Source: Streptomyces sp. NBC_00708
GTDB taxonomy: Bacteria > Actinomycetota > Actinomycetes > Streptomycetales > Streptomycetaceae
DNA length: 64,000 nucleotides
Assembly: GCA_036226585.1 (NCBI GenBank)
Contig: CP108997.1
Location: 7,006,001-7,070,000, forward strand
Direction: 5' to 3'
Of this stretch, positions 16,338 to 28,254 are shown piece after piece (within the stretch, counting starts at the first letter, position 1; the number at the start of each line of letters is the position of its first letter). Both the position numbers and the translations under genes were made by a program. The notes below the pieces were generated by a model. That model made no database searches. It was given only the letters and a program-made list of their open reading frames with translations, and was not told the DNA's origin.

Positions 16338-16651
16338 TCGGCGGCGGCTTCGCCCGCGGCGTGTTCGGGGCCGGGCAGCGATTGGGGAACCGTGGCCGCG
16401 GAGCCCTGCCGTACCGCCTCCACGGCGGCCGCGTGCAGCGCGCGGCTCGCCTCCTCCGTAGGACAGGGCACGGGGCTGCCCGCCATGGTGAACCAGTCGG
16501 CCGCGTCGGTGTACTGCACGGTGACCTGTGCCGTGCCCTCGGCCCAAGTGGTGTGGACGGTCAGGTCACCGGACAGCGGCCCGACCTCCTCGGTGAGCAC
16601 GCCACCGTGCCCCGAATACACTCCGCGTGTTGTCCAGGACGCCCAAGTCAT
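16334..16651 (-). CDS. Conserved-looking protein of unknown function (105 aa)
   Basis: A 105-residue soluble protein. The start at ATG 16651 gives TWASWTTRGVYSGHGG; the middle is beta-rich with alternating hydrophobics (DLTVHTTWAEGTAQVTVQY), and the C-terminal third is a helix (SRALHAAAVEAVR) with an acidic tail. No signal peptide or known motif is visible. The open frame continues upstream, but third-position GC bias and sequence quality drop there. It is divergent from the PepSY lipoprotein gene and ends in a hairpin shared with the upstream gene. Confidence 0.6.
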   Translation of the reverse strand: MTWASWTTRGVYSGHGGVLTEEVGPLSGDLTVHTTWAEGTAQVTVQYTDAADWFTMAGSPVPCPTEEASRALHAAAVEAVRQGSAATVPQSLPGPEHAAGEAAAE

Positions 16652-16853
16652 GCTTTCAGGCTCGCACCAAAGCGGCCGGATCGCGAGCCGCGTGAGCAGG
16701 GAATTCGGACTGTCGTCGCATCTTCGCCCGCCGTACACACATTCCCCGGATTCCCCGTCCCGCCGCGCGGGCCGGAGCGGGATCGCGGTCGATCGGGTGA
16801 CACTGCCCGGTCGGTCCACATGCCGGAGCCGCGCGCCGGTTAAGCATGCGGGC

Positions 16854-17663
16854 ATGACACATGATTCCCGCTCCAAGAACACCGGATTCCTCCGTGCCCA
16901 CCGCCTGCGCGCGGCCGGAGTCGCCTGCGTCGCGCTCAGCGCGGCCCTGCTGACCGGCTGCGGCCAGGACAGCGGCAGCACCTCCACGGCCACGAAGACC
17001 TCGGAGGCCGCCCGCGCCGTGCCCGAGGCGACGAAGAGTCCGTCCCCCACCGGGAGCGAGAGCGCCTCGCCCGGCCAGATGACCGAGGACCAGAAGGAAC
17101 GCAAGGAGCTGATCTCCGCCACCAAGGTCACCTACGACAAGGCCATCACCACGGCCGAGGGTGCGGTGAAGAACAGCAAGGTCATCGAGCTCGAACTCAA
17201 GAGCGCCGAGGACGCGGCCGACGACGAGAGCGCGAGCCCCAGCCCCTCGCCGACGGGCAGCCCTTCCCCCACCGGCAGCCCCTCGCCGACCGGCAGCCCC
17301 ACGCCCGGCTCCGCGCCGCAGTGGGTCGCGACCGTCGCCACCAAGACCGGCACGAAGAGCAAGGTGCACATCGACGCCGTCTCCGGCAAGGTCATCAGCT
17401 CCGCCGAGGAGTCCGGACAGGACACCGCCGGCAAGGCCAAGACGGCCAAGCGGCTGACGGATGCCAAGCAGACGCCGCAGCAGGCCGCGAAGGCCGCCCT
17501 GGCGAAGCAGAAGGGCACGGTGACCTCCCTCGACCTGGACGACAACGACAAGGACGTCCTCGTCTGGAAGACCGATGTCGTCACCAAGGACTGGAAGAAG
17601 ACGACCTTCGACATCGACGCGTCCAACGGCTCGGTCACCCATCAGGAGACCGACAGCGACTGA
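16854..17663 (+). CDS. PepSY-domain lipoprotein
   Basis: A 269-residue secreted lipoprotein with lipobox LLTGC near residue 36. A Ser/Thr/Pro-rich linker of 18-bp coding repeats (SPSPTG units at 17241-17294) sits between two PepSY-like modules, one near residues 80-150 (DKAITTAEGAVKNSKVIELEL) and one near 200-269. PepSY domains are inhibitory or chaperone-like modules, often of extracytoplasmic proteases. The acidic and Lys-rich surface suggests an extracellular location. ATG 16854 is the first start giving a proper signal sequence. A strong bidirectional terminator follows. Confidence 0.85.
   Translation: MTHDSRSKNTGFLRAHRLRAAGVACVALSAALLTGCGQDSGSTSTATKTSEAARAVPEATKSPSPTGSESASPGQMTEDQKERKELISATKVTYDKAITTAEGAVKNSKVIELELKSAEDAADDESASPSPSPTGSPSPTGSPSPTGSPTPGSAPQWVATVATKTGTKSKVHIDAVSGKVISSAEESGQDTAGKAKTAKRLTDAKQTPQQAAKAALAKQKGTVTSLDLDDNDKDVLVWKTDVVTKDWKKTTFDIDASNGSVTHQETDSD
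17241..17294 (+). repeat. Three 18-bp coding repeats (SPSPTG linker)
   Basis: Three near-identical 18-bp units at 17241-17258, 17259-17276 and 17277-17294 encode Ser-Pro-(Ser)-Pro-Thr-Gly repeats in the linker of the PepSY lipoprotein. The differences are mostly synonymous. Confidence 0.85.
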
Positions 17664-17677
17664 GCGGCCCCCGCTCA

Positions 17678-17713
17678 GGGCGACCCCCGGTCCGCACGGA
17701 CCGGGGGTCGCCC
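17678..17713. terminator. Bidirectional terminator
   Basis: A perfect 16-bp stem (17678-17693 with 17698-17713) with a GCAC loop lies between the convergent PepSY lipoprotein and ABC exporter genes. Confidence 0.85.
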
Positions 17714-17723
17714 GCGTCAGGCG

Positions 17724-19625
17724 TCAGGCGGACCGCACGGACTCCTGCCGCCCCTCCGGCGCGCCCGGTGCCGCGAACTGCGTCCGGTACAGCTCCTCGT
17801 ACCGCCCGCCCACCGCCAGCAGTTCGGTGTGCGTACCGCGCTCCACCACCCGGCCCTCCTCGACGACCAGGATGAGATCGGCGGCCCGCACCGTCGACAG
17901 CCGGTGCGCGATCACCACGGCGGTGCGCCCCTCCAGCGCCTCGGCCAGGGCCTCCTGCACGACCGCCTCCGAGGTGGAGTCGAGGTGCGCGGTCGCCTCG
18001 TCCAGGATGACCACGCGCTGCCGGGCGAGGAGCAGCCGGGCGATCGTCAGCCGCTGGCGTTCACCGCCGGAGAGCCGGTAGCCGCGCTCGCCCACGACCG
18101 TGTCGAGCCCGTCGGGCAGCGAGGCCACCAGGCCGTCGAGACGGGAGCGCCGCAACGCGTCCCAGATCTCGTCCTCGGATGCGCCCGGCCTGGCCAGCAG
18201 GAGGTTGGCGCGTACCGATTCGTGGAAGAGGTGGCCGTCCTGGGTGACCATGCCGAGCGTGTCACGGATCGACTCGGCGGTCAGATCGCGTACGTCGACG
18301 CCGTTCAGCCGGACCGCGCCCTCGTCGGTGTCGTAGAGCCGGGGCAGCAGTTGGGCGATCGTCGACTTGCCGGCGCCCGACGATCCGACCAGGGCGACCA
18401 TCCGGCCGGGCTCGGCCCGGAAGGAGACGCCGTGCAGCACGCGCGTACCGCCCCGGGAGTCCAGCGTCGCGACCTCCTCCAGCGAGGCCAGGGAGACCTT
18501 GTCGGCGGACGGGTAGCCGAAGGAGACCCCGTCGAACTCCACGGACACCGGCCCCTCCGGCACCGTGCGGGCATCCGGCTTCTCGGAGATCAGCGGCTTC
18601 AGGTCCAGGATCTCGAAGACCCGCTCGAAGCTCACCAGCGCGCTCATCACCTCGACCCGGGCGCCGGCCAGGGCCGTGAGCGGGGCGTAGAGCCGGGTGA
18701 GCAGCAGAGCCAGCGTCACCACCGCGCCCGGCTCCAGGCTGCCGCGCAACGCGTAGAAGCCGCCCAGCCCGTAGACGAGCGCCAGGGCCAGCGCGGAGAC
18801 CAGGGTCAGCGCCGTGATGAACGTGGACTGCGCCATCGCCGTACGGATGCCGATGTCCCGTACCCGTCCGGCCCGCGCCGCGAACTCGGCGGACTCGTCG
18901 GCGGGCCGGCCGAAGAGCTTGACCAGGGTGGCGCCGGGCGCGGAGAACCGCTCCGTCATCTGTGTGCTCATCGCCGCGTTGTGCGCGGCCGCCTCGCGCT
19001 GCATCCGGGCCATGCGCGAGCCCATCCGGCGGGCCGGTACGACGAACACCGGGAGCAGCGCCAGGGCGAGCAGGGTGATCTGCCAGGAGATGGTCAGCAT
19101 CACCGCGAGCGTCAGCACCAGCGTCACCACGTTGGAGACCACCCCGGACAGGGTGTTGCTGAACGCCCGCTGCGCACCGATGACGTCGTTGTTGAGCCGG
19201 CTCACCAGCGCCCCGGTGCGGGTCCGGGTGAAGAAGGCGACCGGCATCCGCTGCACGTGGTCGAACACCGCGGTGCGCAGGTCCAGGATCAGCCCCTCGC
19301 CGAGCGTCGCCGACAGCAGCCGGGTCAGCAGCCCGAGACCGGCCTCCGCCACGGCGATCACCGCGATCAGCAGGGCGAGACGGACGACCGTGCCGCTCTC
19401 CTTCCCCTGCACGATCGCGTCGACCACCCGGCCCGCCAGCATCGGTGTCGCCACGGCCAGCATCGCCGTGACCACGCTGAGGAGCAGGAACCGGTAGAGC
19501 TGCCGACGGCGCGGCCGGGCGAAGGAGGCGATCCGGCGCAGGGTGGCCCGGGAGAACGGTCTGCGGTCCGCCTGTGCGTGGATCGCGCTCTGCAGCGACG
19601 ACCAGGCGGTGACTTCCATGCTCAT
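17724..19625 (-). CDS. ABC exporter half-transporter (membrane-ATPase fusion)
   Basis: A 633-residue type I ABC exporter. Six transmembrane helices span about residues 40-330. The nucleotide-binding domain carries Walker A GSSGAGKST, signature LSGGERQR and Walker B VVILDEAT. Such fused half-transporters dimerise to export lipids, drugs or peptides. The start is ATG 19625 with GGAGG six bases before it. The promoter at 19696-19726 is a textbook SoxR-type element, so redox-active compounds may induce it. A SoxR-controlled ABC exporter is known in S. coelicolor; I cannot verify orthology here. Confidence 0.92.
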   Translation of the reverse strand: MSMEVTAWSSLQSAIHAQADRRPFSRATLRRIASFARPRRRQLYRFLLLSVVTAMLAVATPMLAGRVVDAIVQGKESGTVVRLALLIAVIAVAEAGLGLLTRLLSATLGEGLILDLRTAVFDHVQRMPVAFFTRTRTGALVSRLNNDVIGAQRAFSNTLSGVVSNVVTLVLTLAVMLTISWQITLLALALLPVFVVPARRMGSRMARMQREAAAHNAAMSTQMTERFSAPGATLVKLFGRPADESAEFAARAGRVRDIGIRTAMAQSTFITALTLVSALALALVYGLGGFYALRGSLEPGAVVTLALLLTRLYAPLTALAGARVEVMSALVSFERVFEILDLKPLISEKPDARTVPEGPVSVEFDGVSFGYPSADKVSLASLEEVATLDSRGGTRVLHGVSFRAEPGRMVALVGSSGAGKSTIAQLLPRLYDTDEGAVRLNGVDVRDLTAESIRDTLGMVTQDGHLFHESVRANLLLARPGASEDEIWDALRRSRLDGLVASLPDGLDTVVGERGYRLSGGERQRLTIARLLLARQRVVILDEATAHLDSTSEAVVQEALAEALEGRTAVVIAHRLSTVRAADLILVVEEGRVVERGTHTELLAVGGRYEELYRTQFAAPGAPEGRQESVRSA

Positions 19626-19695
19626 GCGGTGCCTCCCGGGCAGGACGGATCGGTACGGCCCCGACGGCCGGTACGGGATCGGGGCGCGGAACAGA

Positions 19696-19726
19696 ACGCT
19701 AGAAGCTCAAGCGAACTTGAGGTCAA
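19696..19726 (-). promoter_or_regulatory. SoxR-type promoter with 19-bp spacer
   Basis: On the minus strand, TTGACC (-35, 19721-19726) and TAGCGT (-10, 19696-19701) are 19 bp apart, the overlong spacing used by MerR-family activators. The spacer and -35 edge hold CCTCAAGTTCGCTTGAGC, whose arms CTCAAG/CTTGAG are perfect and which closely matches the SoxR box CCTCAAGTTNNCTTGAGG. It drives the ABC exporter gene. Confidence 0.75.
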
Positions 19727-19763
19727 ACTCCGGGCCCCGTGCGGGCCCGGAGTCGGACCTGCG

Positions 19764-19824: not shown

Positions 19825-19986
19825 GTGAGTTTCACAGACAGTTCCGAAGCACCGATCTACGCCGGTCTCGTGGAGGAGCACGGCGATGTGATGGCCGAGG
19901 TGCGCCGGGTGGCTGAAGAGACCATGCGCGAGGCCGACCTGGCCGTGGACTTCAGCGATATCCGCAGGTCGGCGGCATACCGGTAA
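19825..19986 (+). CDS. Small protein of unknown function (53 aa)
   Basis: A GTG-initiated 53-residue protein (SFTDSSEAPIYAGLVEEHGD at the N terminus), acidic and helical, ending in Arg-rich DIRRSAAYR. It has no membrane segment or recognised domain. Support comes from a -10 upstream, strong third-position GC bias, and a 7-bp hairpin (19993-20011) seven bases after the stop, so it forms its own unit. The ribosome site is weak. It lies between the SoxR-promoter exporter and a phosphatase gene. Confidence 0.55.
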   Translation: MSFTDSSEAPIYAGLVEEHGDVMAEVRRVAEETMREADLAVDFSDIRRSAAYR

Positions 19987-20011: not shown

Positions 20012-20191
20012 GCGCCCGACCGCCCGCCGAGCCTCCGGTGACCCCGGACCGGCCCGCGCGGACGGCCCGCCCCCTCCCTCGTCCGGCACACCCGGGCGGC
20101 TGTCCGGTGACCTCTCGCACTGCGGACCCGGCTCTCCCGTCGGAGCATGGAACGAACAGTCGCCGACGACTTCGGGACGAAGGGAAGCCGG

Positions 20192-22033
20192 ATGGGTGGT
20201 GAACGGCATGAGCCACCGACCGACGCGTTCGAGGCCGAGCTGGACCAGATCGAAGCGCTGAACCGGATGCAGGCGCCCGGCCACGACCCCGCGGTGCCCC
20301 CGGGACCGGAGAACGGGACCCGGTCCGGTGGCACGCCGGAAGAGGCCCGGCGCCGGGACTCCCTGCTGCTCTCGGCCGGACACGCGGTGGCCGCCGCCGA
20401 CACCCTCGACGAGGCCCTGCGGCTCGTCGCCGGCCTGTACGCCCCGGACTTCCCGCTGGACGGCCAGTGCGTCTTCGGCGTCGCCGACGGCAACCTCACG
20501 GTGCTCGGCCAGTACGGATTCCGGCCCGGCGGCACGGGCCGCGGATTCAGGATGCCGATGAACACCGGCTACCCGGCCGCGGAGGTGGCCCGCACCGGGC
20601 GCGCCGTCTACCTCGGCTCCACGGACGAGTACCGGCGCCGCTTCCCTGCCACCTGGCACATGTCCGCCCGCAAGGGACGCGAGTCATGGGCCTTCCTGCC
20701 GTTGGTGACCGCCGGCCGGGTCGTCGGGGTCTGGCTGGCCGCCTTCCGCACGGAGATGGACTTCACGGCCAGCGAGCGCGCCCTGCTCACCGTGACCGGA
20801 CGCATGATCGTCCAGGTGCTCGAACGGGCCCGCGCCAGTCGCGCCGAACTGGAACTGTCCCGGGGCCTGCGCCGCAGCATGCACACCGCGGGCGCCGCCC
20901 CGACCGGCCTGACCGTCGCCACCCGCTACGTGCCCACCGGCGGCGGCCTCATGGTCGGCGGGGACTGGTACGACAGCATCGACCTCCCGAACGGGCGGAT
21001 GGCCGTCGTCATCGGCGACGTCCAGGGGCACGACGTGCACGCCGCGGGGCTGATGGCCCAGCTGCGCACCGCCGTGCACGCGTACGCCGCTGAGGGGCAC
21101 GGCCCGGACGCCGTGCTGGCGCGGGCCTCCCGCTTCCTGACCACCCTCGACGAGGACCGCTTCGCGACCTGCCTCTACATCGAGGCCGATCCGTCCACCG
21201 GCGACCTGCACATCGCGCGCGCGGGACACCCGCACCCCGTCCTGCGGATGCCGGACGGGACCTGCATGCTCAAACACGTCAGCGGCGGGCTGCCGCTCGG
21301 ACTGATGCCCGGCGAGGAGGACTATCCCGTCGACACCGTGCGCCTGCACGAGGGCGAGATCCTCATGCTCTGCACCGACGGGTTCATCGAGAACGGCGGC
21401 CACGACATGTACACCGGCTGGGTGCGGGTGCGCGACGCGTTCTCGCCCGGCCCCACCGACGACCTGGAGGGCATCGCCGACCGGCTCATGGCGGCCGTCC
21501 TCAGCCCCGGACCCGACGCCCGCGAGGACGCCGTAGCACGCGACGGCGACGACATCGCCCTGCTGCTCCTGCGCCGCGACGCCATTCACGCCCGCGCCGA
21601 GGTCAGCCAGCGCCGGCTGATGCTGACCGTGGGCCAGGACCAGGGCGAGGGCCTGGCCGAGGCCCGCGCCGAACTGAAGGCGCTGCTGCACGACTGGGCG
21701 CGCCCGGACCAGGTCGACACGGCGGTGCTGCTGGCCACCGAACTCCTCGGCAACGTCCTCGTGCACACCGACCAGGACGGCGCCCTGAACGCCACGGTCT
21801 CCGGTGAGACCGGCACCCGCCGGCTGCTCGTCGAGGTCATGGACCGGGGCGACGAACTGCCCCATCAGCGGACCCCGGGCGAACTCGCCTCATCGGGCCG
21901 CGGCCTGCTCCTGCTGGACATCCTCGCCCACCAGTGGGGCGTACGGCCCGAGCCCGAGGGGAAGACCGCCTGGTTCGCGCTGAACGAGGCCGCCCCGGCC
22001 GACGGCGGCGACATCACCATTCCCGGCATCTGA
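20192..22033 (+). CDS. GAF-SpoIIE (PP2C) phosphatase with C-terminal anti-sigma-like ATPase domain
   Basis: A 613-residue multidomain regulator. A GAF-like sensor covers about residues 50-210 and a SpoIIE PP2C-type phosphatase about 225-440 (GGDWYDSIDLPNGRMAVVIGD and the FATCLYIE core). An RsbW-like HATPase_c domain lies at about 470-605 (ELLGNVLVHT, then SSGRGLLLLDILA). Such proteins dephosphorylate anti-anti-sigma factors, and the ATPase domain may act as kinase or anti-sigma. ATG 20192 follows AGGGAAG at four bases; an in-frame ATG at 20147 is the alternative. The stimulus and partner are not in the window. Confidence 0.92.
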   Translation: MGGERHEPPTDAFEAELDQIEALNRMQAPGHDPAVPPGPENGTRSGGTPEEARRRDSLLLSAGHAVAAADTLDEALRLVAGLYAPDFPLDGQCVFGVADGNLTVLGQYGFRPGGTGRGFRMPMNTGYPAAEVARTGRAVYLGSTDEYRRRFPATWHMSARKGRESWAFLPLVTAGRVVGVWLAAFRTEMDFTASERALLTVTGRMIVQVLERARASRAELELSRGLRRSMHTAGAAPTGLTVATRYVPTGGGLMVGGDWYDSIDLPNGRMAVVIGDVQGHDVHAAGLMAQLRTAVHAYAAEGHGPDAVLARASRFLTTLDEDRFATCLYIEADPSTGDLHIARAGHPHPVLRMPDGTCMLKHVSGGLPLGLMPGEEDYPVDTVRLHEGEILMLCTDGFIENGGHDMYTGWVRVRDAFSPGPTDDLEGIADRLMAAVLSPGPDAREDAVARDGDDIALLLLRRDAIHARAEVSQRRLMLTVGQDQGEGLAEARAELKALLHDWARPDQVDTAVLLATELLGNVLVHTDQDGALNATVSGETGTRRLLVEVMDRGDELPHQRTPGELASSGRGLLLLDILAHQWGVRPEPEGKTAWFALNEAAPADGGDITIPGI

Positions 22034-25144: not shown

Positions 25145-26941
25145 TTACGGGAAGGCGGGCTGGAGGTCCGCGTACACCCCGTGGCGGCTCAGCAGCTCCT
25201 CGTGCGTGCCGGCCTCCGCGATCCGGCCGCCCTCCATCACCACGATGCGGTCGGCGCCCTGGATGGTGGAGAGGCGGTGGGCGACCACGAAGACCGTCCG
25301 GCCGTGCACCAGCCGGGACAGCGCCTCCTGCACCAGCGCCTCGGATCGGTTGTCCAGCGCCGAGGTCGCCTCGTCGAGCACCAGGACCCTCGGATCGCGG
25401 ATCAGCGCCCTGGCGATGGCGAGCCGCTGTTTCTGGCCGCCGGAGAGCCGGGCGCCGCGCTCACCGACCACCGTGTCCAGGCCCTGGGGCAGGCGGCGCA
25501 CGAACTCCATGGCGTTGGCGTCCTCCAGCGCGCTCAGCAGGGTCGCGTCGTCGGTGTGCCCCAGCCCGTAGGTGACGTTGTCGCGGATGCTGCCCTCGAA
25601 GAGGATCGACTCCTGAGGCACCACCGAGAGGAACCGGCGGTAGCTGCGCAGGTCGAGCCCGGCCATGTCGGTGCCGTCGAGCAGGATGCGGCCGGAGGTC
25701 GGCCGGATGAACCCGATCAGGAGGTTGAGGACGGTCGACTTGCCCGCCCCCGAGGCGCCGACCAGGGCGATCGTCTCGCCCGGCCGCGCGGACAGCGTGA
25801 ACCCGTCGACGGCGGGCCGGGCGTCGTCGTACGCGAAGGCCACGTCCTCGAAGTCGATGCGGCCGGTGACCCGCTCCACCTGCGCCTTGCCCGCGTTGTG
25901 CTCCAGGTCGGGCGCCTGGAGGACCTCGCCCGCCGAACGCACCGACTCCAGCCCCTTGGTGAGGATGGGGGCGAGCCCGAAAAGGGTGGTCACCGAGCCG
26001 GTCAGCACGGTGAAGAAGGCGCTCAGCATGACGACGTCACCGGCGGTGACCGGCATCCAGCCGTGGTACGCCACCAGCGCGGACCCGGTCAGGCAGAGCA
26101 CGCCGAGGGTGTTGAGGAGCACCCAGGCCAGCGAACCGAAGCGGCCGTTGAGCATGTCCAGGCGCAGCCCGGCGGCGAACACCTGACGCAGCGAGCCGTC
26201 CACGCGCCCCAGCGCGGTCCGCTCCAGGCCGTGGGCGCGGGTGATGGGGATGAGGGTGGTCATCTCGCCGACGCGGGAGGACAGCTGCTCGACCTCGCGG
26301 CGGAAGGACTCGTTGTGGCTGCGGAGCCGGCCGCGCAGCCTCATCACGAGGAACCCGGCGGCGGGGACGACGACCAGGAAGACGGGCAGGAACGACGGCA
26401 CGCGCAGGCCGATGACCACGAGCCCGCCGACCAGGGTCACGACGGCGCCGAGTCCCATGTCGGCGCTCTGCTGCACCATCTGCTCCACGGCTTCGACGTC
26501 GCGGACCACCTTGGCCTGCAGCACGCTGGAGCTGACCCGGGCGTGGTAGCCGACGGACAGTTGCTGCATCCGGCGGCACAGGGCCGAGCGCAGGGTGATG
26601 CCCATGCGGCGGATGCTGCCGCCGAGGCACCGCACGTACCACTGATGCAGGGGGTAGTTGAGGACGAGGATGAACAGGAGGAGCCCGGTCGCCTTCCAGA
26701 GTTCGGACTCCGGGCCGTGCTGGACCACCACGTCCAGCACGGTCGCGGTGATCAGCGGCAGCAGCCATATGGGGCTGTGCTTCACGGTGAAGAGGACGAC
26801 GGCGAGGGCCAGCCGGCCGCGGTCCGGGCGGAGGAGGAGGGCGAGCGTGCGGACCGGGTGTTCGCCGCGGTAGCGGTGGTCCAGGTGGTCGAAGGGGGGC
26901 GCCAGGGATTCGGCTGAGGGTGGGGATACCGCTTTCTGCAT
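25145..26941 (-). CDS. ABC exporter half-transporter 2
   Basis: A 598-residue fused ABC exporter. Six transmembrane segments (about residues 35-320) precede a nucleotide-binding domain with Walker A GASGAGKST, signature LSGGQKQRLA and Walker B VLVLDEATSALD. It belongs to the same broad family as the exporter at 17724 but is clearly a different paralogue. ATG 26941 gives MQKAVSPPSAESLAPP, a short cytoplasmic lead before helix 1; more upstream codons are open but atypical. It follows benE on the same strand after 83 bases, so it could be co-transcribed. Substrate unknown. Confidence 0.9.
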   Translation of the reverse strand: MQKAVSPPSAESLAPPFDHLDHRYRGEHPVRTLALLLRPDRGRLALAVVLFTVKHSPIWLLPLITATVLDVVVQHGPESELWKATGLLLFILVLNYPLHQWYVRCLGGSIRRMGITLRSALCRRMQQLSVGYHARVSSSVLQAKVVRDVEAVEQMVQQSADMGLGAVVTLVGGLVVIGLRVPSFLPVFLVVVPAAGFLVMRLRGRLRSHNESFRREVEQLSSRVGEMTTLIPITRAHGLERTALGRVDGSLRQVFAAGLRLDMLNGRFGSLAWVLLNTLGVLCLTGSALVAYHGWMPVTAGDVVMLSAFFTVLTGSVTTLFGLAPILTKGLESVRSAGEVLQAPDLEHNAGKAQVERVTGRIDFEDVAFAYDDARPAVDGFTLSARPGETIALVGASGAGKSTVLNLLIGFIRPTSGRILLDGTDMAGLDLRSYRRFLSVVPQESILFEGSIRDNVTYGLGHTDDATLLSALEDANAMEFVRRLPQGLDTVVGERGARLSGGQKQRLAIARALIRDPRVLVLDEATSALDNRSEALVQEALSRLVHGRTVFVVAHRLSTIQGADRIVVMEGGRIAEAGTHEELLSRHGVYADLQPAFP

Positions 26942-27024
26942 GGAACCATCCCACCGCGCGACCGATGCCCGGGGCAACCGTGTTCCACGGACAGGACACG
27001 GGACGCGTGGCGGAGCGGAAACGG

Positions 27025-28254
27025 TCAGCGGACAGGGAGTTCGCGGGGCTGTTCCTCCGGCGCCGGGGCGGTGCGGCCGGGGCGTCCCGCGGAGGCGATC
27101 GCGCTGGTGACGAGGCCGGCCAGCAGGCCCCAGAACGCCGAGCCGATCCCCAGCAGCGTCACACCCGAGGCGGTGGCGAGGAAGGTGACCACGGCCGCCT
27201 CGCGCGACTCCTTCTCCGCGAGCGCCGAGGCCAGCGAGGACTCGATCGTCGCGAGGAGCCCGATCCCCGCGATCGCCAGGACGAGTTCGTGCGGCATCGC
27301 CGTGAGGAGTGAGGCGACGGTCGCCCCGAGCAGCCCCACGCAGAGATAGAAGAACCCGGCCCACATCGCTGCCAGATAGCGCTTGTCCCGGTCGGGGTGC
27401 GCCTCGTCACCCGTGCAGATCGCGGCCGTGATGGCGGCGAGGTTGATCCCGAACGCGCCGAAGGGCGCCAGCAGCGCGTTGGCCGCTCCGGTCCAGGTCA
27501 TCAGCGGCGACACCGGCACGTCGTATCCGGACCCGCGCAGCACGGCGACACCGGGCAGGTTCTGCGAGGCCATGGTGACGACGAACAGCGGCGCGCCGAC
27601 GCTGACGAGCACCTTCCAGTCGAACTCGGGCGCCGTGAAGACCGGGGTGGCCAGGGAGAGCTGGACCCGGTCCGGCTGCCAGCCACCGGTGAACAGCGTG
27701 GCCACCACCCCGACGGCGAGGGCCAGCAGCACCGCGTAACGCGGCAGCAGACGACGGCCCAGCAGATAGACGACGAACATCGGAAAGGCCACCGCGAAGC
27801 TGTCGTGCATGGTGCTGAACAGGCCCATGCCGAACCGCAGCAGCACTCCGGCGAGCAGAGCGGCGGCCAGCGGCACGGGGATGCGGCTCATGACCCGGGC
27901 GAACCACCCCGTGACACCGCTCACCAGGATCAGCACCGCCGAGAAGATGAACGCACCGACGGCCTGCGGCATGGACACCCCGGCCAGACCCGTCGTCAGA
28001 AGGGCCGCGCCCGGTGTCGACCACGCCGTCACCACCGGCGCCCGGTACCGCAGCGACAGACCGGCGCAGGTGCAGGCCAGGCCGATGCCGAGCGCGAGCA
28101 TCCAGGAGGAGATCTCCCGCGCGTCGGCCCCCGCGGCCTTCGCGGCGGTGAACACCAGCGCCGCCGAACTCGTGACCCCGACCATGACGGCGATCAGCCC
28201 GGCGGCCACGGCGGAGGGAGGCGCGGCCGAACGTATACGGGTCAACGCGGGCAT
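27025..28254 (-). CDS. benE: Benzoate/H+ symporter family transporter (BenE)
   Basis: A 409-residue membrane protein with about twelve hydrophobic segments. The N terminus GLIAVMVGVTSSAALVFTAA and the motif VVTAWSTPGAALL are characteristic of BenE, a proton-coupled benzoate uptake carrier. No benzoate-degrading genes are nearby, so another aromatic or small acid may be its cargo. It is divergent from an XRE-cupin regulator across 117 bases that contain three palindromic elements. One (28263-28276) sits only 9 bases upstream of the ATG, in the ribosome-binding region. Confidence 0.88.
   Translation of the reverse strand: MPALTRIRSAAPPSAVAAGLIAVMVGVTSSAALVFTAAKAAGADAREISSWMLALGIGLACTCAGLSLRYRAPVVTAWSTPGAALLTTGLAGVSMPQAVGAFIFSAVLILVSGVTGWFARVMSRIPVPLAAALLAGVLLRFGMGLFSTMHDSFAVAFPMFVVYLLGRRLLPRYAVLLALAVGVVATLFTGGWQPDRVQLSLATPVFTAPEFDWKVLVSVGAPLFVVTMASQNLPGVAVLRGSGYDVPVSPLMTWTGAANALLAPFGAFGINLAAITAAICTGDEAHPDRDKRYLAAMWAGFFYLCVGLLGATVASLLTAMPHELVLAIAGIGLLATIESSLASALAEKESREAAVVTFLATASGVTLLGIGSAFWGLLAGLVTSAIASAGRPGRTAPAPEEQPRELPVR

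Follow-up and report, generated by a model that had tools for sequence, protein, structure and literature searches.

What switches on the ABC exporter encoded on the minus strand at 17724..19625 of this window (the whole stretch of 64,000 nucleotides analysed here), and what does the cell respond to when it does so? The gene (ATG at 19625-19623) specifies a protein of 633 aa in which a membrane domain is fused to an ATPase (Pfam ABC_membrane and ABC_tran, both above cut-off). The family does not tell the substrate, because all of the 25 listed matches, among 188 NCBIfam families matched, lie below cut-off. Upstream of the gene, on the same strand, lies an element at 19696..19726 that we regard, on the strength of its sequence and with high confidence, as a SoxR-controlled promoter of an ecaA-type exporter. 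Judged by gene class and box, the exporter would be the ortholog of Streptomyces coelicolor SCO7008 (ecaA); no record of that name occurs among the 120 proteins listed or at the best 80 of 579 loci. SoxR control of ecaA has been published, and what we describe is therefore a known system in another strain.

The putative promoter consists of a -35 hexamer TTGACC (19726-19721), a 19-bp spacer and a -10 hexamer TAGCGT (19701-19696). Across the spacer lies the SoxR box CCTCAAGTTCGCTTGAGC (19705..19722, minus strand), which differs from the soxS-type box CCTCAAGTTNNCTTGAGG at one of 16 specified bases, the final G being replaced by C so that the outermost G of the right half-site is lost. Both the spacing of the hexamers and the palindrome between them had been claimed by the sequence-only reading, and sequence and coordinates bear this out. 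A CCTCAAG-type palindrome that spans the 19 bp separating -35 from -10 is what a SoxR-controlled promoter should display. The E. coli soxS promoter presumably holds its -35, an 18-bp palindrome and its -10 in the same register, also with a 19-bp spacer, but there a second regulator is driven, whereas the window promoter would act on the exporter directly. A sigma-70 promoter scan, which admits spacers of 16-18 bp only, found none. Directly adjoining the -35 is a perfect inverted repeat with GC-rich arms of 11 bases (19727-19753); it is similar but imperfect in the near relative L028 and absent in L029, and is therefore poorly conserved.

Could such an arrangement be fortuitous? When up to three mismatches were allowed, the box pattern matched the window twice, both times at this one palindrome read on either strand, compared with a mean of 0.18 matches in shuffled windows, 5 of 100 of which contained at least two. 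In the genome of 7,654,464 bases (7.65 Mb), the same threshold gave 10 matches read forward and 5 in reverse, where a reversed control pattern had 2 and 5, respectively; given these close counts, box matches with three mismatches are mostly noise. At one mismatch or fewer, the window site is the sole soxS-type box of the genome. We consider conservation among relatives, for which we took the best 80 of 579 confirmed loci (the window not among them), to be the strongest argument that the element did not arise by chance. A box with at most 4 mismatches in 16 lies within 300 bases upstream of the exporter at 79 of these 80 loci, and at those 79 the -35, box and -10 keep the same register. The 31-bp consensus TTGACCTCAAN6TTGAGGTNNTANNNT, read from the same 80 loci after their inspection, is matched in its 20 specified bases without mismatch at 40 loci, with one at 34 and with two at 5. 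The only miss, with 10 mismatches, is L053 of Streptacidiphilus jeojiense; control patterns gave 5-11 mismatches (reversed) and 7-11 (complemented) in the same upstream stretches. The window element carries one mismatch. The -35, the outer half-sites, and the TA and last T of the -10 hardly vary; the palindrome centre does.

A box in front of an ecaA-type ABC transporter is thus conserved across species, as it should be in a regulon of the S. coelicolor type. A published survey, in the part of the paper available to us, records soxR and ecaA in all 55 Streptomyces species covered and notes that ecaA commonly has a soxbox (PMC4146615). Conservation over more genomes than these 55 argues that SoxR control of the exporter is widespread in Streptomyces, and the element also occurs at four Streptosporangium and Sphaerisporangium loci (L070, L076, L098 and L111), to which such control would extend.

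Is the cognate regulator present? The sequence-only reading had staked its case on a SoxR gene in the genome, and there is exactly one protein above the NCBIfam cut-off for SoxR (C1:1309215-1309634, minus strand), which scores 234 bits (cut-off 116.9) and contains the cluster motif C-x2-C-x-C-x5-C; by family score and four-cysteine motif it qualifies as a true SoxR. The next-best MerR protein reaches 64 bits. From these sequence features, the regulator is very probably SoxR. Across 199 genomes of the genus, SoxR scored above cut-off in 194, and a close exporter match (E below 1e-270, counted by eye) was found in 169. Taking a best E weaker than 1e-200 as absence of a close ecaA match, again by eye, we counted 30 of 199 genomes and 29 of the 194 that are near-complete (at least 90% complete, at most 5% contaminated). 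Six of the 30 are intermediates that may represent diverged or broken copies (G001, G014, G017, G028, G085 and G098); five of them are near-complete, and setting these five aside leaves 24 of 194 without a close match. The four near-complete genomes without SoxR (G008, G106, G112 and G148) all lack the close exporter match as well, a joint absence with a hypergeometric probability of 4.2e-4, or 1.9e-4 without the five intermediates, in both cases ignoring kinship. G079, a genome that is 78% complete, has exporter and box with no SoxR found, and counts against joint loss. The 55-species survey, as far as seen, reports both genes throughout, whereas our draw of 199 genomes, with a stricter cut for ecaA, holds exceptions to both.

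Where else in the genome does the element occur? The 31-bp pattern, at up to three mismatches, has eight matches compared with none for its reversal. The best of them, without mismatch, lies at C1:183394-183424 (L123 1501-1531), directly after another MerR gene and before an HTH_67-like gene (below cut-off) on the same strand. One mismatch is found in the sites before a SnoaL-like gene (C1:2497802-2497832; L124 1501-1531), whose ATG follows 6 nt after the -10, before a zinc-type dehydrogenase (best NCBIfam match the PIG3 quinone oxidoreductase, below cut-off), before the 633-aa exporter of the window and before an NmrA/epimerase-like gene. A DUF4440/SnoaL-like gene follows a site with two mismatches (C2:87520-87550; L128 1501-1531) and an NADPH-dependent FMN reductase gene one with three; the eighth match is the SnoaL-like site on the opposite strand. 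Under a sequence model built from 32 of the 79 relatives' elements, none of them from this genome, the window site ranks second in its own genome (25.0 bits, E 1.5e-4).

How does this set compare with known regulons? According to the part of the study available to us, SCO7008 is the ABC transporter of a six-gene S. coelicolor SoxR regulon whose other members are an epimerase/dehydratase, a flavoprotein reductase, an oxidoreductase, a quinone oxidoreductase and a monooxygenase (PMC4146615). The present strain resembles S. coelicolor in having a SoxR-boxed ABC transporter with SoxR encoded elsewhere in the genome, and in having further putative boxes before genes of oxidoreductase, epimerase/dehydratase and flavoprotein-reductase type; the quinone-oxidoreductase-like, NmrA/epimerase-like and FMN reductase genes agree with the published list by class alone. 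It differs in that none of the eight matches precedes a monooxygenase (the ecaB class) and in that no actinorhodin-type cluster is evident in the genome searches. The SnoaL-like (two sites) and HTH-like (one site) classes are absent from the published list, and both SnoaL-like genes are, by virtue of the element before them, candidate regulon members outside it. In Pseudomonas aeruginosa, the same source states in the part seen, SoxR drives transporters and a monooxygenase while redox-active metabolites are produced (PMC4146615); that regulon (PA4205-PA4208, PA3718 and PA2274) contains transporters other than the one in the window, which are likened to it by description.

Alternatively, a different activator of the MerR family with the same half-site specificity might drive the exporter, given that members of the family share the arrangement of a palindrome within a 19-bp spacer and that the genome has 27 MerR_1 matches. 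The position of the genome's best match directly after a different MerR gene implies that the half-site motif is not SoxR's alone; that site is perhaps the target of the adjoining regulator. The remaining sites, however, fit a SoxR regulon by gene class, none of the ten window ORFs searched has a MerR-family Pfam match, and SoxR and a close ecaA match are lost together in all four near-complete genomes mentioned above, with kinship ignored. Moreover, genetics in S. coelicolor, as given in the part of the report seen, link SoxR itself to the ABC transporter that bears the box (PMC4146615). We therefore think it improbable that another MerR protein takes SoxR's place at this promoter. Even less probable, to the point of being scarcely credible, is that the promoter serves plus-strand genes instead of or besides the exporter. 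The palindrome can be read both ways and the next genes on the plus strand run divergently, but the best 31-bp match on the plus strand at this site has 6 mismatches in 20, so that the -35 and -10 fit the minus strand only, and 15-16 nt separate the box from the exporter ATG at 63 of the 79 loci that carry it among the best 80 of 579.

How might SoxR control the exporter? We envision a scenario whereby SoxR, a dimeric protein of the MerR family that carries a [2Fe-2S] cluster, would sit on the palindrome inside the over-long 19-bp spacer. A redox-active compound would oxidise the cluster, the DNA would be distorted in consequence, and RNA polymerase could then use the -35 and -10, so that the exporter is produced and expels the inducing compound or a derivative of it. 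Binding by SoxR, its activation on oxidation and induction of the exporter are all expected here by analogy with the S. coelicolor papers and from general knowledge of SoxR, and we can only infer the identity of the exported compound.

Which compound might act as inducer? The sequence-only reading proposed redox-active metabolites such as benzochromanequinones, a notion borrowed from S. coelicolor, where actinorhodin plays this part. The available part of one study reports that the S. coelicolor protein, with SCO2478 as readout, is activated by actinorhodin, plumbagin, phenazine methosulfate and p-benzoquinone and that paraquat does not activate it (PMC5288332). In the present genome, one TcmI-type cyclase scores above cut-off and one just below, and the only evident aromatic type II polyketide cluster (C1:318000-337999; L142) looks like one for spore pigment. 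Besides the cyclase above cut-off, it contains a ketosynthase and an FAD hydroxylase, both with family matches below most cut-offs, together with ACP, aromatase and cupin genes assigned by eye, in an order that we take to be that of the whiE spore pigment. Aromatic ketosynthases generally resemble each other more closely than 44% identity, and the next ketosynthase matches in the genome have at most 44% identity to that of the cluster. We accordingly see no support for a quinone inducer made by the strain, the cyclase cluster being whiE-like and no second ketosynthase exceeding 44% identity. A search for phenazine families returned 0 matches and is uninformative, since its controls likewise returned 0. 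With a spore-pigment-like cluster as the sole evident aromatic type II polyketide synthase, the natural inducer may be foreign, and we consider foreign redox compounds as likely as a strain-made quinone. Thus, the proposal of a SoxR promoter before an ABC exporter holds up through its box, spacer, SoxR gene, 79 of 80 loci and regulon-type sites, and induction by a benzochromanequinone of the strain's own does not.

The exporter is probably transcribed alone, since a convergent plus-strand gene (16392-17663) and a strong hairpin follow it. The hairpin (17678..17713, arms of 16 bp) lies between the two convergent gene ends and is likely a terminator without a T-run: none of 200 shuffles was as stable (z -3.61), and a scan for consensus terminators, which requires a T-run, found none.

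How is the transcript translated? We compared 87 loci, namely the 79 named ones, the window and L028-L034, which are the seven best exporter matches from other genomes in a protein search of the genus. At 63 of the 87, the -10 ends 6-7 nt before the ATG, so that transcription should start at or beside the start codon; the position of the -10 thus implies an essentially leaderless mRNA. At the other 24 (16 named loci, the window and L028-L034), the distance is 31-215 nt. Assuming a start about 7 nt after the -10, the window transcript would have a 5' leader of about 64 nt (19626..19689, minus strand) with a Shine-Dalgarno-like GGGAGG (19632..19637) before the ATG, in which respect it differs from the S. 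coelicolor gene. Such a motif was present at 22 of the 24 leader-type loci, the exceptions being L076 and L098, and at 0 of the 63 leaderless-type loci in the stretch tested. In a quickly made tree of 88 exporters, without bootstrap, the leader-type label requires 4 changes compared with about 21 in shuffles, and the starred branches force 2. The window's clade of seven rows (SH-aLRT 97) is leader-type throughout. In the right half-site, the outer G has given way to another base at 8 of the 24 leader-type loci (that clade plus L036) and at 0 of the 63 leaderless ones. We also considered the leader as a folded switch and rejected it: 188 of 200 shuffles match it in folding (z +1.46), and the leaders compared differ between lineages.

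Whether the unit of SoxR and exporter comes in two translation forms, distributed along the gene tree, is, in our judgement, evenly balanced. If it does, then the same stress pump would be made with or without Shine-Dalgarno-guided initiation according to species, which could matter where the inducing antibiotic also disturbs ribosomes, and the two types would form a natural pair of one stress-induced gene with which to ask what leaderless mRNAs do. Judging by titles and the beginnings of abstracts, none of the papers found that combine leaderless, SoxR and Streptomyces deals with the exporter gene. That the window's lineage has a leader carrying a ribosome site, where most relatives examined lack one, would be a small new twist; the two leader forms and the joint absence with SoxR are two modest additions to the known system.

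Several neighbours of the exporter may be recorded here. A small divergent gene encoding 53 aa from a GTG start may lie at 19825-19986 on the plus strand; L028 and L030 also have its start region ahead of the exporter. It is followed on the same strand by a gene for a SpoIIE-type phosphatase with GAF domains (20147-22033). Another ABC exporter (739 aa) is encoded near the first, on the minus strand (25145-27364).
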